Below, piece after piece: positions 22,616 through 45,910 of a stretch of 46,410 nt of DNA. Under the pieces are notes generated by a model, which ran no database searches, was not told the DNA's origin, and saw only the letters and a program-made list of their open reading frames with translations. The stretch lies in assembly GCF_000337135.1 (NCBI RefSeq), contig NZ_AOIN01000021.1, positions 13,214-59,623 of the forward strand, in the 5' to 3' direction. How positions within the stretch are numbered: position 1 is the stretch's first letter; each line of letters begins with the position of its first letter. Both the position numbers and the translations under genes were made by a program. The stretch comes from Natrialba chahannaoensis JCM 10990 (GTDB taxonomy: Archaea > Halobacteriota > Halobacteria > Halobacteriales > Natrialbaceae).

Positions 22616-22687
22616 ATGAAACGACCGTCTCCTGGCGTTCGTCCCAGCACTGGTTGCCACCCACGGAGGAAGGCCGCCGATGACTGA
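22616..22687 (+). CDS. Possible 23-residue leader ORF before the giant protein gene
   Basis: ATG 22616 opens a 23-codon frame (MKRPSPGVRPSTGCH...) that runs into the next gene and stops 8 nt inside it. It follows a TATA-like TAATTAAG near 22568-22575. The Shine-Dalgarno of the giant gene (GGAGG, 22665-22669) lies inside it, so ribosomes translating it would arrive at that start. This is evidence of layout only. Confidence 0.3.
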   Translation: MKRPSPGVRPSTGCHPRRKAADD

Positions 22688-27218: not shown

Positions 27219-27890
27219 ATGGCAACCGGCGGCAAGCTCGAGAAGGCACAGATTATGATCGTCAACGGGAAGCACCAGGGTGAAACGATCGAATGCAAGT
27301 TCAACCCGAACTCCTACACGCTCGAGAAGAGCGTTAACTACGGTGAGATGAAAGCCACCGGTTCCGGCGCGTCGATCATGCAATTCGTCGACGGCAACGC
27401 CGAGACGCTCTCGACCGAACTGTTCTTCGATACGACCGATGCACTCGAGTCAGACGATGTCGACGCTTCGGCTGTCGACGTCCGTGAGCAGTACACAAAG
27501 TACATCGATATGCTGCTGTCAGTCGACGGCGAACTTCACGCACCGCCAGTCTGTCGGTTCGTCTGGGGTGACGGCATCGACTTTACGGCGCTTGTCCGGA
27601 GTGCGAACAAGCAGTTCACCAAGTTCCTGCCAAGCGGCGTGCCGATTCGCGCTCGCGTCTCGATCGTCTTCACCGAGTTCAAGACAGCAGACTACCACAA
27701 GTCCGAGGTTTCGCCCGAATCGACGGACAAGACTAAGGCGTGGACAGTGACTGAGGGCGATACCCTCTGGTTGATCGCTGCCGAGGAGTACGGCGATTCT
27801 GCTCACTGGCGGACGATTGCAGATCAGAACGATATCGACAACCCGCGTGCGATTACGCCGGGCGAGACACTCGAGTTACCGCCGTTATGA
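27219..27890 (+). CDS. LysM-containing tube-baseplate adaptor (Afp7/gp53-like)
   Basis: The 223-residue protein has two parts. Residues 1-165 match the CIS tube/baseplate adaptor family: KAQIMIVNGKHQGETIECKFNPNSYTLEKSVNY, then ELFFDTTDA and VPIRARVSIVFTEF. Residues 172-223 are a LysM domain with WTVTEGDTLWLIAAEEYGD and NPRAITPGETLELPPL. In phage T4 and in extracellular injection systems this protein links the inner tube to the spike hub. The LysM domain is a structural element here, since haloarchaea lack peptidoglycan. It begins directly after the preceding stop with GGAGGGG in front. Confidence 0.9.
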   Translation: MATGGKLEKAQIMIVNGKHQGETIECKFNPNSYTLEKSVNYGEMKATGSGASIMQFVDGNAETLSTELFFDTTDALESDDVDASAVDVREQYTKYIDMLLSVDGELHAPPVCRFVWGDGIDFTALVRSANKQFTKFLPSGVPIRARVSIVFTEFKTADYHKSEVSPESTDKTKAWTVTEGDTLWLIAAEEYGDSAHWRTIADQNDIDNPRAITPGETLELPPL

Positions 27891-27915
27891 GGTTGAGACG
27901 TCATGAGGTGTTCCG

Positions 27916-28941
27916 ATGAGTCCTGAACTGGATAACCATCCGCGGTACTCACCACGGTTTACCGTCGAGATCGGCGAGCAGACGTTTCAGGAGCCGGGTG
28001 GCCGGATCGCGGATCTCGTGGTCGAGACGACCTTCGAGGGCGCAGACCGGTTCTCGTTTGCGTTAAACTATCCGTTCGACGAAGAACTGGATGAGTTCGC
28101 CGGTCTCTCTTGGGACGATTTCGACATCGGAACCGATGTCGACATTTCGATGGGGTACGGCGACGACGGGCAGTTGACTCCATTGTTGAGCGGGAAGATC
28201 CAGTCGATCACCGGCGAGTTTACGGTCGATCGCGGCCCGTCGGTGCAGGTTGCCGGCTACGGATTGCTCTGGGAACTGATGCAGGGAACCCGGTCTGACT
28301 CCTGGTCGGAAACGACGGTTGGGGCGGCCGTTGAGGACGTCCTCTCCTCGTACTCCTTTTCGTCAGTCGTCGTCGAACGTGCGGACATCAAACGCGAGAA
28401 GCTCATTCAGAACGACTGTAGTGACTACCGGTTCGTTCACGACCTCGCCGCAACGTACGGCTTCGAGTTCTATGCCGAACGGGAGACGGTACGGTTCGTA
28501 CCGCGGTCCTCGGCAGTGACCGATGATCCGATCGACGAACTCTGGTACGGGGAGGCACTGCACGACTTCTTCGGTGAAATCACCCAGCAGAGTCAGACGC
28601 ACGAAGTCGAGGTTCGGTCGTGGGATGTCGGGAAGAAAGAGGAGATCATCACGACTGCGGGCAGTTCCAACGCAAAACACAAGGAGGTTTTCAGAGTACC
28701 AGCTATGTCACGCGATGAAGCCGAACGGATTGCAGAGACGAAGCACAACCAGTTTTCGGACGGGATCGTGCAGGCCCACGGCGAAACTGACGGTATCCCC
28801 GCCCTCCGTGCGGGTGAAACGGTCCGATTCGCCGAGCTTGGGTCCCGTTTCTCGGGGACGTACCACATCACGAAGGCGACCCACCGGATGGGTGCTTCGG
28901 GCTATCGAACCACGTTCGAGGCAGTGGAGGTGCCATCGTGA
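27916..28941 (+). CDS. Spike hub protein, phage late control gpD / VgrG N-terminal half
   Basis: This 341-residue protein is of the gpD family (T4 gp27 type), which forms the hub beneath the tube. It has the opening YSPRFTVEIGEQTFQEPGGRIADLVVETTFEGADRFSF, a DVDISMGYGDDGQLTPLLSGKI domain, IQNDCSDYRFVHDLAATYGFEFYAE, typical of the hub fold, and a C-terminal GETVRFAELGSRFSGTYHITKATHRM. Bacterial VgrG proteins carry hub and spike in one chain; here the spike part is encoded by the next gene, overlapping by four bases (GTGA). GAGGTG at 27904-27909 gives a good ribosome-binding site. Confidence 0.9.
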   Translation: MSPELDNHPRYSPRFTVEIGEQTFQEPGGRIADLVVETTFEGADRFSFALNYPFDEELDEFAGLSWDDFDIGTDVDISMGYGDDGQLTPLLSGKIQSITGEFTVDRGPSVQVAGYGLLWELMQGTRSDSWSETTVGAAVEDVLSSYSFSSVVVERADIKREKLIQNDCSDYRFVHDLAATYGFEFYAERETVRFVPRSSAVTDDPIDELWYGEALHDFFGEITQQSQTHEVEVRSWDVGKKEEIITTAGSSNAKHKEVFRVPAMSRDEAERIAETKHNQFSDGIVQAHGETDGIPALRAGETVRFAELGSRFSGTYHITKATHRMGASGYRTTFEAVEVPS

Positions 28942-29675
28942 GCCGACCGAGTGTCTTCGACGGTGAAACCTCCGATGGCGGTATTCAGGGCGTCGTTGTC
29001 GGCATCGTCACCGACAACGAAGATCCGAAGGATCTCGGTCGCGTCAAACTCCAGTTCCCCTGGCGTGACGCCGACGACGAGAGCTACTGGGCCCGCATTG
29101 CGACACCGATGGCTGGCGACGAATACGGCACGTACTTCCTGCCTGAAGTCGAGGACGAGGTGCTCGTCGCCTTCGAGAACGGCGACATCCACAACCCATA
29201 CGTCGTCGGCTCGCTGTGGAACGGCAAACAACAGCCTCCCCAGCAGAACGACGGGAAAAACGACGTTCGAGAGATTCGCTCCCGATCCGAGCACTCGATC
29301 GCGTTCGACGACGGCGAGGACGGTAGTATCACCATCAAGACCAGCGGTGGACACGAAATCGTCGTCGACGACTCGAAGAACACTGAGACCATTGCGATCC
29401 GTGACGACGACGGGAAGAACGAACTCACTCTCGACAGTTCATCGGGCACCGTCTCGATCACCGCTGATGATGAACTCGAGTTGTCTGCGCCGACGGTTCG
29501 GATCGACGGCTCGAAAACGGTCGATATCGACGGCGGCACGTCCGTCGAGATTGCGAGCAAGAATACGATTGACCTCTCGAGTAAGGCGCGACTGGATATC
29601 TCGAGTAGCGGACTGATGGGGATCGATTCGACGGGGCCGTTGACGATTCGTGGCGCGATTATCCAGCTCAATTGA
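28938..29675 (+). CDS. Spike protein, gpV/VgrG OB-fold plus beta-helix
   Basis: This 245-residue protein starts at GTG 28938. Residues 15-105 form the gp5/gpV OB domain: VVVGIVTDNEDPKDLGRVKLQFPW, ARIATPMAGDEYGTYFLPEVEDEVLVAFENGD and PYVVGSLWNG. The rest is a repetitive beta-strand needle with short runs such as ITIKTSGGHEIVVDD and KTVDIDGGTSVEIASKNTIDL, expected to fold as a trimeric beta-helix. It forms the membrane-piercing spike and is tipped by the PAAR protein encoded next. Its needle is short, and no effector domain is fused to it. Confidence 0.92.
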   Translation: MSRPSVFDGETSDGGIQGVVVGIVTDNEDPKDLGRVKLQFPWRDADDESYWARIATPMAGDEYGTYFLPEVEDEVLVAFENGDIHNPYVVGSLWNGKQQPPQQNDGKNDVREIRSRSEHSIAFDDGEDGSITIKTSGGHEIVVDDSKNTETIAIRDDDGKNELTLDSSSGTVSITADDELELSAPTVRIDGSKTVDIDGGTSVEIASKNTIDLSSKARLDISSSGLMGIDSTGPLTIRGAIIQLN

Positions 29676-29692
29676 GCAGTTGTATCGAACGA

Positions 29693-29812
29693 TGAGTGTT
29701 CACAGAGCACAGGTCAGAGACCGTAGATCACAGATCTGTACCCGAACGTGAACCTGAAATCGAAACGGAAACGGAAGCGGAATCCAATTCAGATCCGAAT
29801 CTAAATCCATGA
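29693..29812 (+). CDS. Possible 39-residue acidic ORF coupled to the PAAR gene
   Basis: ATG 29693 opens a 39-codon frame, MSVTEHRSETVDHRSVPERE followed by PEIETETEAESNSD, ending at TGA 29810-29812. It overlaps the PAAR start by ATGA. It fills the whole gap between the spike and PAAR genes, starting 17 bp after the spike stop. Composition (Glu/Ser/Pro-rich) is like that of haloarchaeal disordered segments. It is a plausible small coupled gene; without homologues it stays tentative. Confidence 0.4.
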
Positions 29813-30099
29813 AACCAGCAGCACGACTCGGCGATGCGACCGCACACGGCACGCCGTTGACTGGCACAGCGAGTCCGAACGTTCTGATCGGTAAGCGCCC
29901 CGCCTGGCGCGCGCTTGCCGACGTCCACACCTGTCCGCTCTCCTCCGGGCCAGTCCCACACGTTGGCGGAACCGTGGCGGTCGGTAGCACCAGCGTTCTG
30001 ATCAACAAGATGCCGGCGGCGAGAATGGGCGACAAGATCATCGAGAACGGCCCGCCGAACACGATCGTTGCGGGCTGTCCAAGCGTTCACATCGGCTGA
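29809..30099 (+). CDS. PAAR-repeat spike tip protein
   Basis: The 96-residue PAAR protein caps the spike with a small metal-binding cone. It contains PAARLGDATAHGTPL at the N-terminus, HTCPLSSGPVPHVGG in the middle and KMPAARMGDKII near the end. The His and Cys residues of the tip (H in TAHG, H and C in HTCPL, H in PHVGG, C in AGCP) could hold a Zn or Fe ion. No toxin domain is attached. It is placed between spike and gp25 as in other injection systems. Confidence 0.93.
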   Translation: MKPAARLGDATAHGTPLTGTASPNVLIGKRPAWRALADVHTCPLSSGPVPHVGGTVAVGSTSVLINKMPAARMGDKIIENGPPNTIVAGCPSVHIG

Positions 30100-30102
30100 A
30101 CT

Positions 30103-30501
30103 ATGGCAGACGAATTCCTCGGCACCGGTTGGCAGTACCCGGTCACGTCGGACCACCGCGGCGACGTCGAACTCTCGAACGCCGAAGGCGACATTCAGGA
30201 GGCAATCAGAATCATCCTCGGTACGGCGAAGGGCGAACGGATCATGCGCCCGGAGTTCGGCTGTGACATCCACGACCACGTCTACTCGGCAGCCTCGCCG
30301 GCAACGTTGAATCTGATCGAGAGCAGCGTCCGCGAGGCGCTCGTCCGCTGGGAGCCCCGAATCGATATCGTCGACGTCGACGCACGAACTGCCACGGACG
30401 ATCCGAATCGCATCCTGATCGAGATCGAGTACCACGTTCGGTCGACGAACAGCCTGTCGAACATGGTGTATCCGTTTCACATTACGGAGGGCGATGGGTG
30501 A
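30103..30501 (+). CDS. gp25-like baseplate wedge protein
   Basis: The 132-residue protein of the T4 gp25/GPW family links the inner baseplate to the first sheath ring. The family core is clear: DIQEAIRIILGTAKGERIMRPEFGCDIHDHV, followed by VREALVRWEPRIDIVDV and ILIEIEYHVRSTNSLSNMVYPFHI. It contains the handshake region normally used to start sheath assembly. This implies that a sheath gene exists, although none is present in this window. Confidence 0.94.
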   Translation: MADEFLGTGWQYPVTSDHRGDVELSNAEGDIQEAIRIILGTAKGERIMRPEFGCDIHDHVYSAASPATLNLIESSVREALVRWEPRIDIVDVDARTATDDPNRILIEIEYHVRSTNSLSNMVYPFHITEGDG

Positions 30502-30540
30502 TGGCACGCCCGCTTCACCGTCGCGGAGGGACGGACGACT

Positions 30541-33500
30541 ATGCGTGAAGGGCCGACGATCGACGACCGGGATCAGGAGGAACTCTTCGAGACGCTGCTT
30601 GACCGCGCGGACGCCTACACCGACGCGTGGGATCCCCACTCCGATGACGTCGGTCGAACGCTGCTTCGCATCTTCTCGACGTTCGAATCCGACGTCCGCA
30701 ACCGGCTGAACGAGGTCCCCGAGAAACATCTCCTTGCGTTCCTCGATGCACTCGATTTCGACCGTCGGCCGCCTCAGGCAGCCCGAACACCGCTTTCGTT
30801 CAGCGTCTCGACCGACCTCGATCGCAATGTCCCAATTCCGGGTGGAACACAGGCCGTCGCGGATGCAGGCTCCGGTGATACACAACTGTTCGAACTCCCG
30901 CAGGAAGGTGGGTTCGAGGCGACGCCGGCCAGGCTCACCACCGTCGTCGGCGTCGACCCAACGACCGACCGAATCGTCGACCACAGCGATGTACTTGAGG
31001 ACGAGTCGAATACGCTGTTCGTCGGCGACAACCGACAGTCGCACGTCCTCTATCTTGGCCACGAGACCGTCCTCACGCTCGCAGCCGGCTCCTCGCTGTC
31101 GATTTCGATACAGCTAGACGCCGCCGCAACCGCAACCTCACCTACGGCTGAGGAGTTTTTCGACGCAACCAGCTGGGAGTACTACGGCGAGGACGAAACT
31201 GGAACCGAGGGCTGGCATCGCCTCGAACGGGCAGGCGACGGTCTCCACCTCGGCGAGGACGCCGGTGTCGAAGCCCTCCAGGAGCAACTCGAGTCCGATC
31301 TCTCGCGACGCGAGGATGCACCCACCGACGACACCGCCGCTGAACGGACGTTCCGGCTTCCAGGACAGACACTCGAATGTGCGGTCAACGAGTGTGAGAG
31401 TCGCTGGATTCGGTGTCGACTCGCCGACGAGACGGCTGTCGTGTCGGCGGCGCTCGAATCTGTGTCGTTGCATGCGGCGAGTAACGGTGAGGATGGCGGG
31501 ATGGAACCGGATATGCTGTTGTCGAACGACGTGCCGCTGTCTGCGGCTGACGGGTCGATCAAACCGTTCGGACGAATTCCACAGCCACCGGCGACGTTCT
31601 ACGTGGCTTGCGAGGAGGCGTTTACGAAGCCGGGCGGCGTGGTCGATCTCGAGTTTGCCTCGGTTGGGAGTGTGGCTACCAATGGCGATAGCAGTGGCAG
31701 TAACGGTGGCAATAGTGATGGCGATGCTGGTGGAGATGGGTCTTCTGAGGGCCACGATCGAACCGGGGATCACAATGGAAACGGCTCCGGGGTTGGCGAT
31801 GATGCATCTGTGGGGCCGGACGCTACGGATGCAGGTTCGGAAACCGATGGCCTCATGGCCGGGTCAACTTCGTCGGATGCTCTCGGCGGCACGGAGCAGT
31901 CGGCGGCTGCGGGTATCGGCGTGCTCGGCGGTCCGCCTCGCCTCTCCTGGGAGTACTGGAACGGCGACGGCTGGACGCGTCTCGACGGCGTCGAAGACGG
32001 GACTGCAGCGCTCTCCTCGCCTGGAACTGTCCGGTTCGAGGTGCCCGAGGACATCGCGCCGACGACGGTGTCCGGCCACGACAACGTCTGGATTCGGTCG
32101 CGACTGGTCAGCGGGAACTACGGCCAGCCGTCGTTCGACGTGACGCGCGATGGAAGTCGGACGATCACCGACGAACCCGATCCGCCAGTCTTTGGTGACG
32201 TATCCGTCCAGTACGACCGCGGGAGCCAGCCCGCCGAAACGGTATTTCGGTACAACAACGCGGCCTTCAGTCCTGACCTCTCGGCCCAACCGGACTCCAT
32301 TGTGCCGTTCGTCGACGTACCCGACGACCAGCAGACGCTGTATCTCGGCTTCGACGACGTACTCGAGAACGGTCCGCTGTCGCTGTTCGTCACGGTCGAA
32401 GATACGACGTATCCACGCTCGTTCGATCCGGGAATCGAGTGGGAGTACTGCGACGGCGTCCGACGCGCCGGCGGCACCCACGCCGCCGACGGCTGCTCGT
32501 GGTCGAAACTCGACGTTCACGATCGGACAGGCGGCCTGACTGAGCGTGGCATCGTGACGCTGACCGTTCCCGACTCGACGACTGCGGTCGAGTTGTTCGG
32601 ACACGAACGCCACTGGATACGGGCGCGAGTGACGAAAGACAAGTTCGAGACGCAGTCTGGTAGCGTGTCCTCGGATGCTACCGTCCCGTTTGGCGCTGAC
32701 GATGGGACTAAGACTGGCGCTGCCACCGCGTCCGCAATCGAAGCCACTGCCGCGAGCGGTGGTGACTCGAGTAGAGCGGCGGACGCAGTCGATGGGACGC
32801 CAGCAGGCGTTTCCAGCGATCGGACCAGTACACCGCCCGTTCTCGATGGCCTCTACCCGAACACGCAGTGGGCGTACAACACGGTCACTGTCGAGGAGGA
32901 ACTCCTCGGCTCGAGCGATGGGTCACACGAGCAGTCGTTTCGCTGTTCGCACGCTCCCGTGATCGATATCGAGGTCTGGGTCGACGAACTGTCGACGCTA
33001 TCGGCGAGTGAACGCCGCCGCCTCGCGGAGGAGCGACCCGACGCAGTCACGACGGAGTATGATGCCCGCGGCGAGCCGACCGCCTTCTGGGTGCGCTGGC
33101 ACGCGGTCGATGACTTTCTCGACTCGACGCCAGCGGACAGACACTACGTCGTCAACCGCACACTCGGCCTCATCTCCTTCGGTGACGGCGACCACGGCGC
33201 AATCCCGGCGGCTGGGCAGGACAACGTCCGTGCGACGTACACGACCGGTGGCGGTAGCGACGGCAACATCGGCGCGAAGACGATCACCGATCTGAAGAGT
33301 TCGATCGCGCTGGTCGAATCGGTCTCGAACCCGCTGCCGGCCGACGGCGGGGCCGACATCGAATCGACGGACGCGCTGGTCTCCCGATCGACGAACAGCC
33401 TCAAACACCGCGGCAAGGCAGTGACCGCGAGCGACTACGAACGAGTCGCCGCTGCTGAATTCCCGGAACTCGCACGGGTGACGTGTGATCCATCACTCGA

Positions 33501-34104
33501 GCACACAGCCGGCAGTTCCGCCGCACAGGTCACCGTCCTTATCGTTCCACACACCGAGCGAGAGAAACCGGTGCCGTCGCTTGCGCTCAAACACCGTGTT
33601 CGGGAAACACTGACCGAACGCGCGCCGGCATCGCTCGTCGCCGCAGACGACACGGGTATCGTCGTTCGCGGCCCGAACTACGCCGACCTCTCGGTCGACG
33701 TAACGCTGGAAGCGACGGCGGTCACAAGCGTCTCGTTGCTCAAGGAAACGATTCAGCGCCGGCTCGAGGCGTTTCTCCACCCGCTGTCGGGTGGCAATGG
33801 AGATGGCTGGGCGTTCGGCACGCTCCCAACTGTCGACCAGCTCAGTTCGGTCGTCGCCAATGTCGACGACGTGGCGGCCGTCCTCGAGTGTCGCGTGCTC
33901 GTCGAGACGGGTGCCGACCGACGGCTGTTGTCAGAGTACAGTAGTCGGTCGTTACCCCGTGATACGCTCGTCTGTAGCGGCTCGCACCAGGTTTCGGTGA
34001 CGGTTGGGGAGTCGGATACGGGCGGTGCTGTGGCTGCGGATTCGACGTCGAGGTCGAACTCGAGTACAGCGGTGTCGACACGAGACTCGAGGAGGGAGTT
34101 CTGA
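30541..34104 (+). CDS. Baseplate wedge protein, J-like (first of two)
   Basis: This 1187-residue putative baseplate assembly protein belongs to the gpJ/T4 gp6 wedge type. The N-terminal domain (MREGPTIDDRDQEELFETLL, PHSDDVGRTLLRIFSTF) matches that of the next gene. The C-terminal J domain contains NSLKHRGKAVTASDYERVAAAEFPEL and FLHPLSGGNGDGWAFGTLP. Two low-complexity inserts interrupt it: a Gly/Asp/Asn/Ser run at about residues 380-455, and an Ala/Ser/Thr-rich run near 715-765. These are absent from typical relatives and may be flexible surface loops. GGAGGG at 30525-30530 supports the start at 30541. Confidence 0.88.
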   Translation: MREGPTIDDRDQEELFETLLDRADAYTDAWDPHSDDVGRTLLRIFSTFESDVRNRLNEVPEKHLLAFLDALDFDRRPPQAARTPLSFSVSTDLDRNVPIPGGTQAVADAGSGDTQLFELPQEGGFEATPARLTTVVGVDPTTDRIVDHSDVLEDESNTLFVGDNRQSHVLYLGHETVLTLAAGSSLSISIQLDAAATATSPTAEEFFDATSWEYYGEDETGTEGWHRLERAGDGLHLGEDAGVEALQEQLESDLSRREDAPTDDTAAERTFRLPGQTLECAVNECESRWIRCRLADETAVVSAALESVSLHAASNGEDGGMEPDMLLSNDVPLSAADGSIKPFGRIPQPPATFYVACEEAFTKPGGVVDLEFASVGSVATNGDSSGSNGGNSDGDAGGDGSSEGHDRTGDHNGNGSGVGDDASVGPDATDAGSETDGLMAGSTSSDALGGTEQSAAAGIGVLGGPPRLSWEYWNGDGWTRLDGVEDGTAALSSPGTVRFEVPEDIAPTTVSGHDNVWIRSRLVSGNYGQPSFDVTRDGSRTITDEPDPPVFGDVSVQYDRGSQPAETVFRYNNAAFSPDLSAQPDSIVPFVDVPDDQQTLYLGFDDVLENGPLSLFVTVEDTTYPRSFDPGIEWEYCDGVRRAGGTHAADGCSWSKLDVHDRTGGLTERGIVTLTVPDSTTAVELFGHERHWIRARVTKDKFETQSGSVSSDATVPFGADDGTKTGAATASAIEATAASGGDSSRAADAVDGTPAGVSSDRTSTPPVLDGLYPNTQWAYNTVTVEEELLGSSDGSHEQSFRCSHAPVIDIEVWVDELSTLSASERRRLAEERPDAVTTEYDARGEPTAFWVRWHAVDDFLDSTPADRHYVVNRTLGLISFGDGDHGAIPAAGQDNVRATYTTGGGSDGNIGAKTITDLKSSIALVESVSNPLPADGGADIESTDALVSRSTNSLKHRGKAVTASDYERVAAAEFPELARVTCDPSLEHTAGSSAAQVTVLIVPHTEREKPVPSLALKHRVRETLTERAPASLVAADDTGIVVRGPNYADLSVDVTLEATAVTSVSLLKETIQRRLEAFLHPLSGGNGDGWAFGTLPTVDQLSSVVANVDDVAAVLECRVLVETGADRRLLSEYSSRSLPRDTLVCSGSHQVSVTVGESDTGGAVAADSTSRSNSSTAVSTRDSRREF

Positions 34105-34106
34105 GG

Positions 34107-34259
34107 ATGAGTGGCTGTCCTCGGCCCACGGTGGGCGAATCAGTGCTTGAGCCTGTCGATCTCACCGGTCTCAGCGACACCAGTGAGTACGGCACGTGGA
34201 GGGATGTTTGCTGGAGTCGGCGAGGACGACGAGCACAGCACACGACCGACAGACGGTGA
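34107..34259 (+). CDS. Possible 50-residue ORF between the two J-like genes
   Basis: ATG 34107 begins two bases after the preceding stop and reads 50 codons (MSGCPRPTVGESVLEPVDLT, then GLSDTSEYGTWRDVCWSRRG). The frame ends 19 bp before the next start. The first 35 residues look protein-like. GAGG lies directly in front. It resembles the other short ORFs of this operon, but no family is recognised. Confidence 0.35.
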   Translation: MSGCPRPTVGESVLEPVDLTGLSDTSEYGTWRDVCWSRRGRRAQHTTDRR

Positions 34260-34278
34260 GAGAGACACGAACACAATA

Positions 34279-36309
34279 ATGGGACTGGACATACCGGAAC
34301 TCGACGACCGAACGTATGACGAACTGCTCGAGCAGGCGACCACACTCATTCCGGCGTACTCGAGTGAGTGGACCGATTTCAACCCGCATGATCCGGGAAT
34401 TACGATTCTCGAGGTCCTCGCCTGGCTCACCGAAACGCACACCTATCAGCTAGACCAGATCACCGACGAGCATCGAGAATCGTACCTGCGGTTGATCGGC
34501 TACGAACGCCGCCCGCCGACGCCGGCGACAGCCCGGATACGGCTCGATCCGCCAAGCGATGCGGCCGGTGCGCGACTTCCCGCAGGAACGCCGGTCGCCG
34601 TCACTGACGGGACGGAGAGTGTCTTTCAGTTCGAGACAGACTACGAACTGACGCTGACAGCAGCCAGCATCGACCGCGTGATGACGGTCGACGAAACGGG
34701 GGCGACCGATCATCGGAAGGCAAACCAGACTGATGGTATGTTCTATCGTCCGTTCGGCGACACCGTCGATCAGGGAGCCTGTGTCTACCTCGGATTCGAC
34801 CGCGATCCGTTCGCGATCGCCGACCGCCTCACGCTCGCTGTCGCCTATCACGACGATAACCTTCCGGAGCCGTCACTGGGTACTGACACTGATGGCGACC
34901 GTCCGACCTTCTCGCCGTCTGTCGATCTGGCTTGGGAGTATCACAATCCGGAGACAGGATACTGGCAGCCCCTCTCGGTCGCCGTCGACGAGACCAATGC
35001 GCTGTATCGGGACGGCCACCTCGAACTTGTCGTCGACGAGGCGACCACTGACAGTAGCGATCGTCCACGATCGGCCGCTGAGGGAACGCTTCCTGAGACC
35101 CCGCCACTTGAACTCGACGACACGGTCTGGCTCCGCTGTCGCGTCGACACGCCCGACTACGAGTTCCCGCCACAGCTCGAGACGATCAGTACGAACGTCG
35201 TCACCGCGAGTCATAACATCTCGATCATCGACGAACAGCTTTCGCCGGTCGGTGCCGATGCTCGTGGTGCTGGCGGCGCTGCCACAACGAGTACGCGGAA
35301 CACGGACACGACACCGATCCTCGACAGCCAGACGTACGCCGTCAAGCACACCCCCGTCCTGTCGGCATCCGTTCGCGTTGACGGCGAACGATTCGTCGAA
35401 GTACCTGACTTCGTCGCTTCGGGGCCAAACGACCCACACTACGTCCTCGACCGCACGCGTGGCCACATCACGTTCGGCGACGGCGTTTCCGGGTGCGTTC
35501 CTGACCCCGATGCGACGATCACCGCAGACTACGTCGCCGGCGGCGGCACTGCAGGTAACGTCTCCGATAGCGCGGTCTGGCGGATCACCGACTCGAGTAC
35601 GTCCTTCGACTCGAGCTCGGACGTAGCGGTCTCACCGACCGATCTCGAGATCACGCCGCTCGGACCGGCGACCGGCGGAACTAACCGCGAGAGCGTCGCG
35701 GACGCACTGCGACGGGCCAGACGCGACCGCCGCCGAACGCATCGAGCTGTGACGGCAGACGACTACCGGGCGCTCGTTTCGCGTACGCCGGGGCTCAGGA
35801 TCGGACGGACGAACGTTGTCGTCGAGAGCGAGGGGACAACCGTGGTCGTCGTTCCTTACGCACCAGTCGACGTTTCGAGTCCAGAGCCAAGTGACGGCTT
35901 TCTCGAAGCGATTTACAGCCATCTCCGAGAACGGACGCTGCTGACCGACCGCGTACACGTGACCGGTCCTCAGTACGTCCGACTCGAGTTAGACGTGACG
36001 GGGCGGACGCGTCCACGGTACACCGGCGGTGGGTACGAGGCGGCGATTACGGAGGCAGTCGAGTCGTACCTGCATCCGCTGTATGGCTACGACGGTTCGG
36101 GGTGGCCGTTCGGCCGAACACTCGAGAGCGAGGAACTGATCGAGGTGATCGAATCGGTCGATGCAATCGACCAGATTTCGGACGTATCAATGACCGCCTA
36201 CGGCGGGACGGCACTCGATGGCCGGGTAATCTCAATCGACGACACGTCGCTTTTCACCGTCGAAACGGTCACCGTCGATCTTCGAACGGCAGACGATGGA
36301 GGGTACTAA
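34279..36309 (+). CDS. Baseplate wedge protein, J-like (second)
   Basis: The 676-residue protein is paralogous to the preceding gene product and corresponds to the second wedge subunit (Afp12 position). It opens MGLDIPELDDRTYDELLEQA, then SSEWTDFNPHDPGITILEVLAWLTE and RLIGYERRPPTPATARI, as usual for the family. The C-terminal J-like domain has RRTHRAVTADDYRALVSRTP and YLHPLYGYDGSGWPFGRTL, matching FLHPLSGG-GWAFGTL in its neighbour. The start at 34279 is chosen because the in-frame residues upstream are not protein-like. It is followed by the next gene after two bases. Confidence 0.88.
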   Translation: MGLDIPELDDRTYDELLEQATTLIPAYSSEWTDFNPHDPGITILEVLAWLTETHTYQLDQITDEHRESYLRLIGYERRPPTPATARIRLDPPSDAAGARLPAGTPVAVTDGTESVFQFETDYELTLTAASIDRVMTVDETGATDHRKANQTDGMFYRPFGDTVDQGACVYLGFDRDPFAIADRLTLAVAYHDDNLPEPSLGTDTDGDRPTFSPSVDLAWEYHNPETGYWQPLSVAVDETNALYRDGHLELVVDEATTDSSDRPRSAAEGTLPETPPLELDDTVWLRCRVDTPDYEFPPQLETISTNVVTASHNISIIDEQLSPVGADARGAGGAATTSTRNTDTTPILDSQTYAVKHTPVLSASVRVDGERFVEVPDFVASGPNDPHYVLDRTRGHITFGDGVSGCVPDPDATITADYVAGGGTAGNVSDSAVWRITDSSTSFDSSSDVAVSPTDLEITPLGPATGGTNRESVADALRRARRDRRRTHRAVTADDYRALVSRTPGLRIGRTNVVVESEGTTVVVVPYAPVDVSSPEPSDGFLEAIYSHLRERTLLTDRVHVTGPQYVRLELDVTGRTRPRYTGGGYEAAITEAVESYLHPLYGYDGSGWPFGRTLESEELIEVIESVDAIDQISDVSMTAYGGTALDGRVISIDDTSLFTVETVTVDLRTADDGGY

Positions 36310-36311
36310 CC

Positions 36312-38591
36312 ATGGAGTTTTCGTACGCAACAACGGCAAGCGAGGCCGACTGGGAGGAGTGGGTAACCGATCACACGGAAGTCGCGGACGGAGGACTCAC
36401 ACTAGCGAGAACGGCTTCGATACGGGAATCAACGCTTGGTGAATCCATCGTCGACCTCGCTGTCGATCCAACTGGTGTTCTCTATACGCTCGATGCTGCG
36501 GGGCGACTCTCACAGTACAATCCACGTACCGATTCGCGCCAGCGGTTGCTCGATAGCGACGATCTGTCGCTCGACGAGCCGCGAGCGATCTGTGCCAGCG
36601 AGAGTCGCGTCTTCGTCGCGGGAGCGGACGACGAACGGATCGTCACGGTTTCACCGCGGCTTCGAAACGAGACTGGGGCGCTTCAATCGCCGGTGGCAGC
36701 GCCGGTCGAACTCACCTTCGATAGCGGGACGATTTACGTCCTCGACGGCGACGAACGCATCGCGTGTCTCGGGACGACCGAGGAACTCACGGTCGACTGG
36801 TGGGTCCGATCACCGGCCGACATCGCAGTCGCCGACGACCTGCTGTACGTCCTCGATAGCGTCGATGCCTCGCCGACCATCCGATTGTTCCGGGGCGAAC
36901 GCGAAGTTCGGAACGACTCGTATCCACTCTCTAGGGACGCGTTTGCGATCGATGGCAATCGATTTGTCCCGACCGCAATCGCCGCACCCCGTGGTTCGCT
37001 CGTCCTTGCAGGGACTGTCCACGGTGAACGAGGCCCCACGCACGGGCTCTTCGAGTGGAATGAAACAGCGGGCGAGTTCGAACAGCGACACGAACTCGAG
37101 GCCCGCTGTCGACGGCTTATCAGCCGGCCACTCAGCCACAGCGATCGACGTGTCTTCTACGCGCTGGTCGGTGACCAGCGCGTCTGCTGTGCCCTCCAGG
37201 AACGCCAGACCGTCGCATCTCACCCTCACCGCGATCGTCACGTTGGGCTAGCGTTCCACCGGTACGACGCTGGCGTCGACGGTATTTCTTGGCATCGTCT
37301 CGCACTCGATCTTGCTCGCTCGTCTGCGAGCACACAGGTCCGGCTTCGATACTACGCGACCGACAAACCAACTGTTCTCCCGCTCAACGGCGACGATTTT
37401 GAAGGCGGTGAAGACGGCCAAGACGGCGAAAACAGTAACGACAGCGAAAACCATGAAGTCGACGATCCCACGAACCAGCCCGATCTCGGTGCACTCGAGA
37501 AGACGGCTCGCTCGACGCTGCAGTCCATCGACGTCGACTCGGTGTGGGAACTTACGAGCACACCCGCCGCCGAACTCGCGGATAGAGACGAAGACGGGGA
37601 ACTCGAGACAACCACCGTTCGGTCCTGGCAGGAAACGGCGCGACGAGAACTCGCTGCTCATGCCGAGACGACGTGGACGCTCGTCGACGAAATCGATCCC
37701 GAGGACATCCTCTTGCGCGAGGCGAACGGCCGGTACCTCTATGTCGCCGTCGAACTCGTCGGCACTCCAACCGCTGCGCCACGAATCGACGCCGTCACTG
37801 CCTACTGCCCTCGCCAGTCCTACCTTCGATACCTGCCGGAGCTCTATCAGAACGACGATCGGTCGGCACAGTTTCTCGAACGGTATCTCTCGACGTTCGA
37901 GACCTCGTTCGTCGATATCGAATCCGAGATCGAACAGCTTCCTCGCTACTTCGATCCGGACGGAGTTCCGAGTGATTCACTCGCCTGGCTAGAAGACTGG
38001 CTCGCGGCCGACGAGTATCGCGACTGGCCCGAAAGCGCCCGTCGAGAGTACCTAGCGCGAGCACCCGAGCTGTACCAGAAACGGGGTACCAGAGCAGGGC
38101 TCCGTGAAACGCTCGAGCTCTACCTTCGGCACGCGAATCCACGTGGCGGTGTCAGCGATCCTGCTCACCGAGCGCGACCGGACGAATCGGCCACGACGAA
38201 CGAGGTCTCCGATCTCGAGGCGTCTTCGGGTCCATCCGTTGGCGACCTCGAAACCGGTCACCGACTGTTCTTCTTCGACGCGACGGATTTCGATCGGGCT
38301 GACGGCACTGCCGTCGAGCGAGAGTACGGATCGATGCTCGCTGGCGATCGGTCGTTCGCGCTCTTCTGTGGCCCCTTCGACTCTGACGCCGAACGGGATG
38401 CTATCGAGCGGATTGTTGCAACCGAGAAACCGGCACACGTTGATGCACGGGTACTTGCACTCGACGATGAGTTCGTCCTCGGTGATCGGACATTCCTCGG
38501 ACTCAACAGCGCACTCCAGACGCGGACGTTCGCGATGGGCGAGGCGGTTCTCGGCGAGGATACCGTTCTCGCTGGTCCGGATTCGATGTAA
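36312..38591 (+). CDS. Beta-propeller / phage tail protein I fusion
   Basis: This is a 759-residue protein. The first 330 residues have repeating units such as SIVDLAVDPTGVLYTLDAAG and PADIAVADDLLYVLDS, which suggest an NHL- or WD-like beta-propeller. A linker with an acidic run (about residues 360-395) follows. The C-terminal third is the tail protein I domain found in CIS clusters: YLRYLPELYQNDDRSAQFLERYL, LPRYFDPDGVPSDSLAWLEDWL, RGTRAGLRETLELYLRHANP. Tail protein I closes the baseplate periphery and holds fibres. The propeller could bind a receptor, taking the place of a separate fibre, but this is inference. It is the last baseplate gene of the operon. Confidence 0.85.
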   Translation: MEFSYATTASEADWEEWVTDHTEVADGGLTLARTASIRESTLGESIVDLAVDPTGVLYTLDAAGRLSQYNPRTDSRQRLLDSDDLSLDEPRAICASESRVFVAGADDERIVTVSPRLRNETGALQSPVAAPVELTFDSGTIYVLDGDERIACLGTTEELTVDWWVRSPADIAVADDLLYVLDSVDASPTIRLFRGEREVRNDSYPLSRDAFAIDGNRFVPTAIAAPRGSLVLAGTVHGERGPTHGLFEWNETAGEFEQRHELEARCRRLISRPLSHSDRRVFYALVGDQRVCCALQERQTVASHPHRDRHVGLAFHRYDAGVDGISWHRLALDLARSSASTQVRLRYYATDKPTVLPLNGDDFEGGEDGQDGENSNDSENHEVDDPTNQPDLGALEKTARSTLQSIDVDSVWELTSTPAAELADRDEDGELETTTVRSWQETARRELAAHAETTWTLVDEIDPEDILLREANGRYLYVAVELVGTPTAAPRIDAVTAYCPRQSYLRYLPELYQNDDRSAQFLERYLSTFETSFVDIESEIEQLPRYFDPDGVPSDSLAWLEDWLAADEYRDWPESARREYLARAPELYQKRGTRAGLRETLELYLRHANPRGGVSDPAHRARPDESATTNEVSDLEASSGPSVGDLETGHRLFFFDATDFDRADGTAVEREYGSMLAGDRSFALFCGPFDSDAERDAIERIVATEKPAHVDARVLALDDEFVLGDRTFLGLNSALQTRTFAMGEAVLGEDTVLAGPDSM

Positions 38592-39640: not shown

Positions 39641-39776
39641 GCAGATAGGATACACAGTAGTTGTTCTGAGTACTAGTTCAACCTATTGTACTGTCGGAAT
39701 GACTTTATCGGTATTGCCGTTGAAGCTCATCTGGAAAGACTCCGAAGACTTCTTCCCCGATCAACCACGTTCATCC

Positions 39777-40664
39777 ATGCCACAACACGTCCTCGTTCCG
39801 ATCGACGGATCGGATCACGCCCACGCCGGACTGGAGTATTGCCTCACGTCGTTTCCTGATGCGTCACTGACTGTGTTGTACGTCGTCGACCCCACATACG
39901 ATCATGAGGCAGCGGTCGGTTCCCAAACAACGTTACATGAGCACACCAAGGAACGCGGAGAGCAGGTTCTCGAACGTGCGGCGAGACGCGTTTCTGATTG
40001 CGATCGTGACATAGAAACGATACTCAGAACTGGACAGCCACATACAGAGATTCTGTCCCTCGCAACTGGTGATGTCGATCACATTGTCCTTGGTAGTCAC
40101 GGCGAGTCACCAATTACGAAGCCGTTTCTCGGTCGCGTGAGTGAAGCAGTCATCCGGCGGACACCCGTTTCGACCACAATTGTCCCCGAATCGACGACAG
40201 CCATTCGTAACCGAGATCTTCCCGGAGACGTTCTCATCCCAGTGGACGGCTCAGCACAAGCCGATGCCGCGCTCGCATACGCACTCGAGACGTTTCCGGA
40301 CGCAACCCACACTGTCTTCCACGCCCTGTCATTCCCGTTCGATCGTCCTCGGTCGGAAGTCGAGGGAACATATCTCGAAGCAGTCGTGACCGACCGCGAG
40401 GAGCAAGCCGAGGAACTATTCGAATCTGCAACCACGCTCTCAGACGAACTGGGATCATCGATCGAGACAGAAACCGCAGACGGGTTGCCAGCACAGTCGA
40501 TACTCGAGTACGCAGAAGTGAACGCGTGTGATCAGATCGTGATGGGGGCTCACGGTCGCTCGCTCAGGGCACGACTTCTCGGTTCGGTTGCGGAACGTGT
40601 CGCTCGCCGATCCCCGCGGACAGTGACGCTTGTTCAGGGTGATCCCCGGTCGAGGACAACGTGA
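39777..40664 (+). CDS. Tandem universal stress protein (two UspA domains)
   Basis: The 295-residue cytoplasmic protein is made of two UspA domains (about 1-140 and 150-290). Each begins with a beta-strand and Asp: VLVPIDGSDHA and VLIPVDGSAQA. Each ends with a nucleotide-binding loop: GSHGESPITKPFLG and GAHGRSLRARLLGSV. The second loop fits the ATP-binding G-2X-G-9X-G-(S/T) pattern; the first has G-R at its end and may bind less well. ATG 39777 was chosen over an upstream in-frame ATG that overlaps the TATA-like box. It lies upstream of a P-type ATPase on the same strand, a frequent neighbour of Usp genes. Confidence 0.9.
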   Translation: MPQHVLVPIDGSDHAHAGLEYCLTSFPDASLTVLYVVDPTYDHEAAVGSQTTLHEHTKERGEQVLERAARRVSDCDRDIETILRTGQPHTEILSLATGDVDHIVLGSHGESPITKPFLGRVSEAVIRRTPVSTTIVPESTTAIRNRDLPGDVLIPVDGSAQADAALAYALETFPDATHTVFHALSFPFDRPRSEVEGTYLEAVVTDREEQAEELFESATTLSDELGSSIETETADGLPAQSILEYAEVNACDQIVMGAHGRSLRARLLGSVAERVARRSPRTVTLVQGDPRSRTT

Positions 40665-41033
40665 TCAGTAACCGAACAAATCTGGGGGGTGTATTAAATG
40701 GCAAATCGTCGTAGGAGTCGCCGCATGACCATTCGGTTTGCTGGTGTCGATAGCACTGAATGGGGCTATCTCTCCTTGACGCTACTATCTGCACTCCTCA
40801 GAGTGTCTGCTTTCGAGATGCCAGTGTACATATCGGACTTACATTCCAGCAGTGACGACCTGTGTTCTGCTGAAGAAATCGACGACCGAACTCACAACGG
40901 GGGTGATTCAAATCGACGTTTAGTGGACAGACTCGCTGCGACGGGCGATCCGCGGTGCGACGGTCACCGGTATATCTCGTGAGGGATCGAGGCTGAAGAC
41001 GAGAGCGGAGTGAGTACCGACAACAACGGATCG
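40665..41033. other. Intergenic stretch upstream of the P-type ATPase
   Basis: Short open frames occur here (for example 40698-40982, plus), but their composition is not haloarchaeal-protein-like and I do not call them. GGTATATCTC near 40969-40978 is a good TATA candidate for the ATPase, placing transcription start near 41000. Confidence 0.5.
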
Positions 41034-43844
41034 ATGTCACAGTCAGAATACGACGACCGAATCGAACTTAGCGCTGGCAGCGACTGGCACTCGCGGCCAC
41101 TCACAGACATCTATGCGGAGCTGGAGACGTCCGAAGAAGGACTGGCGGCTGCACAAGCCCGTGAGCGACTTGAGCGCTACGGCCCGAACAAGGTCGAAGC
41201 CGAAGCGGGAACATCGCTGTTACGGATTCTCGTTGAACAGTACTCGTCGGCGCTGATCTGGGTGCTGATCGTCGCCGCAATTGTGATGGCTGGGGTTGGA
41301 CACACGATCGACGCGGCAGTCATCACGGGAATCGTGATCTTCATCACACTGTTCGGGTTCGTCCAGGATTACCGAGCCGAACAGAGCGTGCAGGCGCTGA
41401 AAGAGATGTCGACGACCTACGCGATCGTCAGGCGAGACGGCGAAAAACGGGAACTTGATGCCACGAAACTCGTCCCTGGTGACGTAATATTCGTCGAATC
41501 GGGTGATATCGTGCCGGCCGACGCTCGTCTCCTCGAAGAGTCAAATCTTCGCGTCGACGAGGCGGCGCTGACTGGGGAAAGTGTCGGCGTCTCAAAGGAA
41601 ACCAACCAAGTCGATGAGGGAACATCGCTGGCCGAGCGAAAGAACACCATCTACAAGGACACGGTAGTTGAGCGAGGCTCGGGAACGGCGGTCGTCGTTG
41701 AGACCGGTCCTGAGTCCGAAATCGGACAGATAGCGACGGCACTCGAGGAGGCTGAAGATCGGGAAACGCCGTTTCAGACCGAAATGGATCGCCTGGGGAA
41801 GATCATTGCCGGCGTCGTTGTCGGCGCGGTCGCGATCATCGCAGTTGCAGAGCTCATCGTTGGTGAGACAGAGCCGCTGCAGGTGTTCCTGACGGCTGTC
41901 GGTATCGCCGTCTCCGCGGTTCCTGAAGGACTGCCAGCGGTCGTCACGCTTTCGCTCGCACTCGGGGCCCGCCGGATGGCCGAGCAGAACGCGCTCGTCC
42001 GCCGGTTGCCGATTGTCGAAGCGCTAGGTTCAGTTGATGTTATCTGCACCGACAAGACCGGGACACTCACCGAAGAGGAAATGACCGTTCAACGGATCGC
42101 TGCCAACCGCGAGGTGTACGAGGTGACCGGTTCGGGCTACGATACCGAGGGAGAATTTCTACAGGATGGCGAGGCTACAGGCGAAGCCCAAGTTGCCGAG
42201 ATACTCCGCTGCGGAATGCTTTGCAACAACGTTGACAGAGGTACTCGAGAGCGCGACACAGATGGTGACGAGACAGGGGTCGCTGACACTGAGCAAGAGG
42301 AACGAACGTACCTCGGTGATCCTACCGAAATCGCACTGTTCGTCGCTGCCCAGAAGGCTGGCTTCGACCACGAGGAACTCTTTGAAGCGTACCCCCGCCT
42401 TGGCGAAATCGAGTTCACATCCGCACGGAAACGCATGACTACCGTCCACGAGACGCCCGACGGTGACCCCGTCGCCTACATGAAGGGGGCACCCGAGACC
42501 GTCCTCAAGCGCTGTGACCGAGAACTCATCGACGGCAGCTTCGTCGAACTCACGGATGAACGCCGCGAAGCGATTGAGGCTCAGAACGAGGACTTTGCCG
42601 AGGACGCTCTTCGTGTGATGGGGTTTGCCTATCGGCCCGACGTACCGACTGAGCAGGCGACACGTCCGGACGAGACAGTAGAGCATGACATGGTCTTTCT
42701 CGGCCTCCAAGGAATGCTCGACCCGCCACGACCGGAGGTGACCAACGCGCTCTCCGGATGTCTCAACGCCGGAATCAATATCGTGATGATCACCGGTGAT
42801 AACGCTGTCACTGCTCGTTCGGTCGGCGATGAGATTGGGCTCCGGTCGGTGACAGTGATTTCAGGACTCGAACTCGAGGAGATGTCTGACGATCGACTCG
42901 CGGAAGTCGTCGAGGATGTCGACATATTCGCGCGAACGTCGCCGGACCACAAGACTCGAATCTTACAGACGCTGCAGGCGGAGGGACACACGGTAGCGAT
43001 GACTGGCGACGGTGTCAACGACGCACCGGCCGTAAAAAACGCCGATGTCGGCGTCTCGATGGGGATTCGTGGGACCGACGTCACCGAACAGGCCTCCGAT
43101 ATCGTCCTGCTCGATGATAACTTTGCTACCATTCGGGATGCAGTCAAGGGTGGCCGACGTATCTTCGACAACGTCCGAAAGTTCGTCAACTACCTGCTGT
43201 CGGGAAATGGCGGCGAGGTCACGATGATCTTTACCGGTTCGATGTTGGGATTCGGACTCGTCATTACGCCGATCCAGATCCTGTTCATCAACATCGTTAC
43301 CGACGGCATTCCAGCCCTCTCGATGGGCGTCGATCCGCCCGCAAAAGACATCATGGACAGAGATCCGAGGCCGCCGGACGAGGGCGTCATCACGGATCGG
43401 ATCGTCACGTCGATCGTCGGTATCGCCGTCTTCATGACGATCTGTCTTCTCCCACTCTTTACCCTGAACTTCTACGGTGAACTCGTGCCTGGATATGACG
43501 TACTGGAGGCAGTCGCTGGCTGGAATCCTGGCTACGAACCGAGCCGGGAACTCGCACAGACGGTGGTGTTCACCGGATTCGTCGTCTTCGAGATCGTCCG
43601 CATTCAGGCGATCCGCTACCGGTACGGGCTCGGACTCTTCACGAACCGCTGGCTCGTGATTGCGGTCGCTGTCGCCGTAACACTCCAGTTACTCGTCCTC
43701 TACACGTCGACCGGCCAGCTCCTGTTCGATGTCGAACCGCTTGCACTCGTTCACTGGCTCCAGATCGGCGTCGCCGCGGTCGTCTTTGCGCTCTTGATGT
43801 CTCTCTTTGTGAAGGTCCAGGACCAGTACTTCGAGCGGTATTGA
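41034..43844 (+). CDS. P2-type cation-transporting ATPase
   Basis: The 936-residue membrane pump uses the phospho-aspartate cycle. Visible motifs are the actuator TGES in [10 protein letters not shown], the TM4 motif [10 protein letters not shown], phosphorylation site D340 in [12 protein letters not shown], the nucleotide-binding KGAPE, and the hinge [20 protein letters not shown]6 reads [20 protein letters not shown]. The N-terminal cation-ATPase domain ([22 protein letters not shown]) and the PEGLP motif place it with P2A/P2B Ca2+ pumps and related Na+/K+ or Mg2+ transporters; the ion cannot be fixed. About ten helices are present. An in-frame GTG at 41010 is an alternative start. It converges with the cytochrome-like gene; the 114-bp gap has no clear terminator. 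Confidence 0.92.
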
Positions 43845-43958: not shown

Positions 43959-44609
43959 TCACAGATCGGGTGGATACTCGCCAGTCTTCCGATATTCGGA
44001 GACGACAGCCGTGAACGCGACGACGTGGAGGACAACCACCAGGACGATCATCGCGAGGTAAATCAGGTGGAGCGGGTCGTCCGAGGGAAATCCCATCTCT
44101 TCGTACGGCCGGAGATACGCCCGATCGTAGCCGTGGACGGCCACGAGCCAGAAGATGACATACGTCCCATGGCTCTGGTGCCACTTCCACGCTTTTGCAC
44201 CGAGATAGTCGTAGGCCCAGTTGTTGGAGGTAAACGCCAGCACGATCGCGATGAGGACGGCAACCATGGCACCGAACGCCCACGGACTCATATCGACGAG
44301 ATACCCGACCACGTTCCAATCGCGCGCCCAGAAGACGAACACGACGTGGACGACCGACCAGATGGCGAACCAAATACCCAGTTCTGACCGCCAGTTCACG
44401 GGAAAATTCCCCGAAAACTGACGTCTGATCGACGGCCGGATACGCACCAGCGGGCCGATGATCATCACGAAAAACAGTATGAAGAAGGGGACGGCGGCGA
44501 CGACTCGCTGCCCGCCGTATCCGACGACCCACAGCAGGACCGCGACGACGATGCTTCCGATCGCTACGCCCAAATGGTGCGTGAGTTCGTTATTGGTATC
44601 TACCGTCAT
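43959..44609 (-). CDS. Ferric-reductase-like transmembrane cytochrome
   Basis: The 216-residue protein has about six membrane helices (starting near residues 12, 35, 75, 108, 145 and 185). Histidines are well placed to bind haem: in the helix WSVVHVVFVFW, in WKWHQSHGTYVIFWLVAVHGY, and in VLHVVAFTAV. This pattern fits the ferric reductase-like/MsrQ-type membrane haem b family, which moves electrons across the membrane. It lacks its own flavin or NADPH domain, so it needs an electron donor. The gene just upstream on the same strand encodes a Usp-ferredoxin fusion, which could serve. The 74-bp gap holds a TATA-like GTTTTATT and a palindrome. Confidence 0.75.
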   Translation of the reverse strand: MTVDTNNELTHHLGVAIGSIVVAVLLWVVGYGGQRVVAAVPFFILFFVMIIGPLVRIRPSIRRQFSGNFPVNWRSELGIWFAIWSVVHVVFVFWARDWNVVGYLVDMSPWAFGAMVAVLIAIVLAFTSNNWAYDYLGAKAWKWHQSHGTYVIFWLVAVHGYDRAYLRPYEEMGFPSDDPLHLIYLAMIVLVVVLHVVAFTAVVSEYRKTGEYPPDL

Positions 44610-44622
44610 TGTGTATTCGTGT

Positions 44623-44632
44623 CACCCGGGTG
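44623..44632. promoter_or_regulatory. Palindrome before the cytochrome gene
   Basis: CACCCGGGTG is a perfect 10-bp palindrome 14 bp before the ATG at 44609, downstream of a TATA-like GTTTTATTG (minus strand, near 44658-44667). It could be an operator that regulates the second gene of the pair independently. Only symmetry and position support this. Confidence 0.3.
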
Positions 44633-44683
44633 TGATGATTCAGACACCGATCGCTTCAATAAAACTATGCCTACTGACAGGCC

Positions 44684-45910
44684 CTATATAACCCGTTCCC
44701 GAAACTCGTCGAGATGTTTCACCCCATAGACCAGTTTGATCGAGTCGCTCGCTGGCGTGGCCACACAGGTCAATCGGAATCCCTTCTCTTCTACCTCCTC
44801 GTCCGAGAGACTGCGCTGAATATCCATCTCGAGTTCCCCCTCAAGCAACACGGCTGTACAGTTCACACAACCACCAGCCCGGCAATGAAACGGCCAACTG
44901 TGGCCGGCCGCTTCGGCCGCGTCGAGGACGTACTCGTCGCGCGACACCTCCAAGGTGCCGTGTACCGCCTCATCGAGGTCAGCGTCTGCAGCACGTTCAA
45001 GGAGGGCGTCATCCTCAAGCGACCAGCCACGGTCGTCGATAACCTGATAATCGAGGTATTCAACGGATACCGTCTCGTCTCGGGGTGCGCTGATGCCGAT
45101 CACCGGGACACTTGCAAACCGGACGATGCGTTCCGTCGTACTCCCGAGGAGATAGCGCCGCAGTCCGGTCTCACCGTGCGTTCCCATTACGATACAGTCA
45201 ACATCGAACGTTGCGGCAGTTGCGAGGATTTCCTGATCCACCCGCCCACTCGGAATCGATACGTCAACGACGTCCAGTTGCGACTCGTGAAGGAACTCAA
45301 GCGCATCGTCAACAGGATCAAGGCCAACCTCGACCTCATTCGAGAGGTCGATCGTTTCGGTTCCCTCGATCGGTGATTCAGCGTTCACGTGGACGATGTG
45401 CAATCGTGCACCCGTTTCGACCGCGAGGTCGACAGCGTGTTCGAGAGCAGTCGCTGCACTATAGCTTCCATCGGTGGGAACCAGGATGCGCTCAAATCCA
45501 CGCTTGGCCGTCGTCTCTTCGTGGACTGTCGCGACCGGAACTGACGACTCCTGAAGAGTCTGTTTGGCGACGCTGCCGAGCAGGAATCGACCGAGTCCAC
45601 TCCGCCCAGTCGTCCCCATCACGATTAAGTCTGCGCCGTGTTCGTCAGCCGATACGAGAATCTCTTCGTGAACGCCATCGCCCTGCTCACGAACCTCGGT
45701 TGTCACTTCAAGACCGTGATCTTCCGCTCGGTGGCACAGTTCGTTGACCGCCAGTTCACTCTCGCTTTTATCGTCGTCGACGAGTCCCTGTTCGAGAACC
45801 GAGAGGATGTGTAGCGTCGCGTCGAACTGCTTTGCAATTCCGACTGCGTACCTTCCAGCGTCTGTTGCGACCGTACTTCCGTCAGTCGGTACGAGAATCG
45901 TATCATACAT
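44684..45910 (-). CDS. Usp-Usp-[2Fe-2S] ferredoxin fusion protein
   Basis: This 408-residue protein has two universal stress domains followed by a halophilic plant-type ferredoxin. Usp 1 (1-135) opens ILVPTDGSTVA and closes GTTGRSGLGRFLLGSV. Usp 2 (about 143-278) opens ILVPTDGSYSA and closes GTHGETGLRRYLLGST; both keep the G-2X-G-9X-G-(S/T) ATP-binding loop. From about residue 285 (VEYLDYQVIDDRGW) the sequence follows the Halobacterium ferredoxin, including its acidic insertion LLERAADADLDE and the end KHLDEFRERVI. The four iron ligands are all present: C343, C348, C351 and C382. Nucleotide sensing could thus be tied to electron transfer. A TATA-like GTTATTTTC lies about 27 bp upstream (leaderless). 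The ferric-reductase-like gene follows on the same strand and is the likely partner. Confidence 0.9.
   Translation of the reverse strand: MYDTILVPTDGSTVATDAGRYAVGIAKQFDATLHILSVLEQGLVDDDKSESELAVNELCHRAEDHGLEVTTEVREQGDGVHEEILVSADEHGADLIVMGTTGRSGLGRFLLGSVAKQTLQESSVPVATVHEETTAKRGFERILVPTDGSYSAATALEHAVDLAVETGARLHIVHVNAESPIEGTETIDLSNEVEVGLDPVDDALEFLHESQLDVVDVSIPSGRVDQEILATAATFDVDCIVMGTHGETGLRRYLLGSTTERIVRFASVPVIGISAPRDETVSVEYLDYQVIDDRGWSLEDDALLERAADADLDEAVHGTLEVSRDEYVLDAAEAAGHSWPFHCRAGGCVNCTAVLLEGELEMDIQRSLSDEEVEEKGFRLTCVATPASDSIKLVYGVKHLDEFRERVI

Follow-up and report, generated by a model that had tools for sequence, protein, structure and literature searches.

A haloarchaeal gene fusing two Usp domains to a complete ferredoxin, and its candidate partner, a YedZ/MsrQ-like membrane protein

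We have analysed a 46,410-nt stretch of the Natrialba chahannaoensis JCM 10990 genome (hereafter the window), in which, as the earlier note had described, a gene for a fused Usp–Usp–ferredoxin protein is followed on the same strand by a gene for a membrane protein. The second gene starts 74 nt past the fusion stop, and its product appears mostly helical (Table 1). RefSeq labels the first product "ferredoxin Fer" and the second "hypothetical", and because of these names the link between the two is invisible in current annotation. Convergent with this pair lie genes for a tandem Usp protein and a cation P-type ATPase (39699–43844, plus strand), the ATPase being a frequent neighbour at clade I loci (defined below). 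Further away on the plus strand is a set of contractile injection system genes (22680–38591), with CIS_tube with LysM, Phage_base_V, Baseplate_J and Tail_P2_I domains, and upstream of it a gene for a 1512-aa Ser/Thr-rich protein with zero Pfam matches.

Table 1. Features of the fusion locus, in coordinates of the window
Feature	Coordinates	Strand	Evidence
Usp–Usp–ferredoxin fusion gene, 408 aa	44684..45910	−	ORF and translation, Pfam, NCBIfam, 25 homologous fusions
Usp domain 1, residues 1–131	45518..45910	−	Pfam PF00582
Usp domain 2, residues 139–273	45092..45496	−	Pfam PF00582
Complete haloferredoxin domain, residues 282–408	44687..45067	−	NF041393, PDB 1e0z/1doi, cysteines
Intergenic region	44610..44683	−	TATA-like TTTTAT (44659–44664) and imperfect inverted repeat TCACacccggGTGA (44622–44635), upstream of membrane gene
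FRD (YedZ/MsrQ-like) membrane protein, 216 aa, mostly helical	43959..44609	−	Conservation, hhalign to MsrQ, R-x13-H signature

Pfam orders the fusion protein as Usp, Usp and Fer2 (E 2.7e-56 for the two Usp domains and 6.6e-13 for Fer2). The ferredoxin part matches the NCBIfam model NF041393, "ferredoxin Fer", with residues 282–408 over profile positions 2–128 of 128, scoring 198.8 bits where the cut-off is 150, and in the PDB the fusion comes closest to the haloferredoxins 1e0z and 1doi, which align with residues 282–408 as well; the claim that two Usp domains are joined to a complete halophilic [2Fe-2S] ferredoxin is thus borne out. The proposed cluster ligands C343, C348, C351 and C382 stand where they had been placed and are invariant in 25/25 fusion homologues. 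Both Usp domains have the fold, the G-x2-G-x9-G(S/T) loop and the N-terminal DGS aspartate: D10 and G99-x2-G102-x9-G112-S113 in the first, D147 and G243-x2-G246-x9-G256-S257 in the second, with all ten named residues invariant in the alignment of 25 fusions. By motif, then, both appear to be of the ATP-binding type.

A search for the same three-domain architecture and its neighbours retrieved 25 uninterrupted fusions, without a single internal stop, from 22 of 391 Halobacteria genomes in 14 genera. The fusion is carried on finished plasmids in N. magadii (pNMAG01) and N. occultus (plasmid 2), and this and the 25 intact homologues rule out a frameshift or sequencing artefact at the Usp–ferredoxin junction, which the earlier note had named as a way in which its reading could fail. 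The architecture is old and has been maintained, and all three fusion domains are under purifying selection (dN/dS 0.16–0.29, with 0.11 in the membrane protein). A phylum sample of 197 genomes yielded full-length fusions solely in genomes previously known as carriers. In a tree, the ferredoxin domains of the fusions form one clade (support 99/97) apart from ordinary Fer, and the simplest reading would be a single fusion event followed by vertical and plasmid-borne spread.

Ordinary Fer is retained in all 23 genomes checked, and its sequence is ∼55% identical to the fusion ferredoxin domain of the same genome; since the fusion genomes among them have both, the fusion represents an additional ferredoxin, one that is specialised. 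It shares with the haloarchaeal Fer/Fdx proteins (1DOI, 1E0Z; NF041393) a full-length domain with four cysteines, all 127 C-terminal residues being alignable, but differs from them in its two added Usp domains, its separate clade and its coexistence with ordinary Fer. With tandem Usp proteins (3LOQ; TTHA0350, UspE) it has in common two Usp domains per chain, here with both nucleotide loops present, but a ferredoxin is absent from the archaeal Usp survey, which lists fusions to a permease and to a cation/H+ exchanger and leaves ferredoxin unmentioned (PMC12159084). Unfused Usp tandems in other haloarchaea sit in different gene contexts, from which the membrane gene is absent. Another composite form occurs at three haloarchaeal loci (L199, L200 and L201), where an N-terminal J-domain-like region precedes a haloferredoxin in proteins of 225–251 aa that fall outside the Usp-fusion clade.

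The membrane protein is harder to name. Pfam gives zero significant matches for the window copy, and the NCBIfam MsrQ model (NF003831) reaches E 3e-5 and 23.6 bits, below its 130-bit cut-off. Among 19 relatives, matches to MsrQ or MamZ recur, and Ferric_reduct (PF01794) is found in three, with a best E of 4e-4. A profile of the family aligned by hhalign with MsrQ scores 95.2% (E 2.8e-8), and the Smith–Waterman score against E. coli MsrQ is 97, as compared to a maximum of 57 in two sets of 500 shuffles. Thus, the "ferric-reductase-like" label holds, but only at the profile level, without the MsrQ cut-off being reached. Residues R74, H88, H144, H159 and H12 are invariant in alignments of 31 and of 19 homologues, with R74 lying 14 residues ahead of H88 (R-x13-H; both invariant in the 19). 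We take the same 14-residue spacing between arginine and TM3 histidine to apply to YedZ and STEAP, deriving it from NOX2 numbering. An arginine in place of the first canonical haem histidine is the YedZ/STEAP signature (PMC3591440). In TM5, H159 and H144 are invariant, and H147 is lost in clade II (31 homologues), so the partner of H159 may be either H144 or H147. Hydropathy shows five clear segments, since the fifth helix of the FRD core is rich in His and too polar to register, and a single-sequence AlphaFold model, although poor (pLDDT 54), is mostly helical at its low confidence; six helices are probable. By signature and profile we place the protein as a distant YedZ/MsrQ-like member of the FRD superfamily, which would be expected to bind b-type haem. 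The window copy is the sole such FRD protein found in the source genome. A search of the PDB with the family profile gave nothing meaningful, and a match on an Alkalihalophilus plasmid (31% identity to the membrane protein) carries no Pfam domain.

Two more specific identities were rejected. The protein is not a self-sufficient NADPH ferric reductase of the NOX/FRE type, having 216 aa and no flavin or NAD(P)H dehydrogenase domain; Pfam and NCBIfam detect no FAD or NAD domain, in agreement with the earlier statement that it has no reductase domain of its own. Nor is it the MsrQ of an MsrPQ system, given its score against that model and the failure to find an exported MsrP: none lies at the locus, and the genome's single Oxidored_molyb protein is encoded on another contig and by inspection has no export signal. 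With YedZ/MsrQ, STEAP and the FRD superfamily (PF01794) it shares the FRD core, the invariant Arg that precedes the TM3 His by 14 residues, the absence of a flavin domain and probably the TM5 histidines, and a separate soluble donor would recall Fre with MsrQ. It differs from YedZ/MsrQ and STEAP in falling far under MsrQ cut-offs, in having no MsrP, in being archaeal and in its pairing, which is with a ferredoxin and not with a flavin reductase. The pairing of a plant-type [2Fe-2S] domain with an FRD haem domain also has a precedent in the natural Fer2-fused FRD proteins (architecture M8), already recorded as electron-transfer modules (PMC3591440), but here the two are separate proteins and the ferredoxin is borne on a Usp tandem.

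The association of the two genes extends well beyond the window. The membrane family occurs in 21 of the 22 fusion genomes, compared with 8 of the remaining 369 (P 3e-27 by Fisher's test), and, by genus, in 13 of 14 fusion genera versus 5 of 72 others (P 1e-10); these P values ignore finer relatedness, but the genus count and five same-genus genomes that have neither gene agree with them. The other weak point that the earlier note had foreseen, separate genes in relatives with no co-occurrence with the cytochrome, is therefore not what the genomes show. The membrane gene is adjacent at 21 of the 25 fusion loci, downstream and co-directional in clade I (13 loci) and divergent in clade II (8 loci). 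These clades are separated in both the fusion and the membrane gene trees, and the membrane tree has in addition a clade III without the fusion. Distances of fusion and membrane proteins correlate weakly in clade I (r 0.18) and with r 0.82 in clade II. One genome (G029) has a fusion without an adjoining membrane partner, and another (G344) has a fusion and no FRD protein at all. At three fusion loci without an FRD neighbour, the fusion adjoins a gene for a two-helix protein of 70–79 aa with invariant H4 and H46. No homology of this protein to the FRD membrane protein is detectable by hhalign; its weak Pfam matches, mostly to b-haem membrane families (DUF4079, cytochrome b561, PepSY_TM and Ni_hydr_CYTB), suggest that it is b-cytochrome-like. 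On the genomic side, electron transfer is best argued for by this recurrent pairing of the fusion with two different, apparently haem-type membrane proteins. At the N. occultus locus (L126:9247-10884), an insertion separates the fusion from the membrane gene, namely a potassium-channel-like gene with TrkA_N and TrkA_C domains.

The intergenic TTTTAT and its flanks are conserved at 13/13 clade I loci, and an imperfect inverted repeat, TCAC-N6-GTGA, is present in most of them and is a possible operator. With a conserved TATA-like element between the genes, the membrane gene may have its own promoter in clade I, so that co-transcription with the fusion is not certain; this element and the existence of a fusion-free clade lead us to regard the two genes as linked rather than as one obligatory transcript.

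A third component appears in some relatives. At two loci (L112 and L114), a clade III membrane gene directly follows a gene for a Tat-type lipoprotein with a Fer2 domain (the export signal being recognized by eye), and a Tat-lipoprotein [2Fe-2S] ferredoxin is also encoded close to two fusion loci. A further locus (L115) combines a Usp tandem without ferredoxin, an exported ferredoxin, the membrane gene and a P-type ATPase. Close homologues of the lipoprotein were found in 17 genomes, 14 of which have the membrane gene or the fusion (P 5e-15); none was found in the source genome or in several other clade I genomes. The adjacency in clade III and the co-occurrence across genomes suggest a route from cytoplasmic ferredoxin through membrane haem to exported ferredoxin. 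Apparent export of these proteins (L068, L069, L112, L114 and L115) is in itself unusual for a plant-type ferredoxin. Elsewhere in the window lies a gene for a protein of the ethylbenzene dehydrogenase family (EB_dh; 7871–9154, plus strand), and a similar-looking Tat-lipoprotein adjoins an exported ferredoxin at another locus (L208).

We lean, with modest confidence, towards a reading that takes the fusion for a dedicated stress ferredoxin, acting as soluble electron donor to the adjacent FRD-type b-haem membrane protein. Haloarchaeal ferredoxin receives its electrons from 2-oxoacid oxidoreductases, and its re-oxidation has been described as unresolved (PMC8305020). Low-potential electrons from 2-oxoacid:ferredoxin oxidoreductases or from ordinary reduced Fer would enter the [2Fe-2S] cluster of the fusion, and the reduced ferredoxin would dock on the membrane protein from the cytoplasmic side. 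The histidine-ligated haem or haems of that protein would relay the electrons through the membrane to an acceptor on the outside, which in relatives is plausibly the exported [2Fe-2S] lipoprotein. Both direct transfer and its direction, from fusion to membrane haem, are inferred. The Usp pair would probably tune the timing or place of transfer according to ATP/AMP level or stress, and the system would serve as a stress-time outlet for ferredoxin electrons. Such an outlet is probably conditional, because most haloarchaea are without the pair.

Of the alternatives, the one that survives best, as a real if minority possibility, is that the two genes are only co-regulated neighbours, the fusion serving, in times of stress, some other redox enzyme of the cytoplasm and the membrane protein belonging separately to the same stress island, with its Usp and P-type ATPase genes. 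The locus is indeed set among Usp, P-type ATPase, CBS, DUF2267 and pyridoxamine-oxidase-like genes, the first four making up a set that we take to resemble bacterial hypoxia or dormancy stress islands; the promoter-like element of the membrane gene and the fusion-free clade of its family point the same way. However, the ATPase and Usp neighbours vary by locus, whereas the membrane gene is adjacent in both orientations, including at clade II loci free of the ATPase, and at loci that lack it its position is taken by another kind of b-cytochrome-like gene. Usp proteins are mostly considered regulatory or protective, and with both nucleotide loops intact and invariant in 25 fusions one may also envisage a redox sensor, in which the [2Fe-2S] domain reports the redox state of cell or membrane to a signalling or protective Usp pair, gaining or losing the sensing electron through the membrane protein. 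We consider this improbable: the fusion carries a complete Fer, not a degenerate sensor, an effector or DNA-binding domain is absent, and electron carriage is the simpler reading. MsrQ can draw on the quinone pool, and the profile similarity to MsrQ would fit a reverse flow, in which menaquinol gives electrons to the membrane protein and this in turn reduces either the fusion or a repair enzyme on the outside, for example MsrP. This last is very unlikely, as the MsrQ cut-off is missed, MsrP is not adjacent and the lone Oxidored_molyb protein is no substitute by location or export signal, and the potential of halophilic ferredoxin, similar to that of NAD/NADH (PMC8305020), makes the transfer uphill from menaquinol.

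Returning to the dedicated stress ferredoxin, nucleotide control by the Usp pair is a tentative element of it. The fullest version, a nucleotide-gated ferredoxin, is likewise a speculative proposal that we hold to be doubtful as it stands: an ATP/AMP- or stress-sensing Usp tandem would switch on the link between the dedicated ferredoxin and a membrane-spanning haem relay, which in some relatives would end at the exported ferredoxin lipoprotein. The parts are each known (FRD proteins, the pairing of Fer2 with FRD (PMC3591440), tandem Usp), and the combination is new; in keeping with the remark that such a link had not been seen described, text searches of the literature, with subscription papers outside their coverage, found no published description of a Usp–ferredoxin fusion or of this locus. 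The gene pair offers a concrete, testable candidate route for ferredoxin re-oxidation, at least under stress, in hosts that include cultivated species such as Natrialba magadii, where the fusion is NMAG_RS22510 and the membrane protein NMAG_RS18410. If the proposed transfer is real, Usp domains, about whose molecular function little is known, would gain a direct redox partner, and if the nucleotide-gated version is also true, haloarchaea would have a regulated outlet for reduced ferredoxin.
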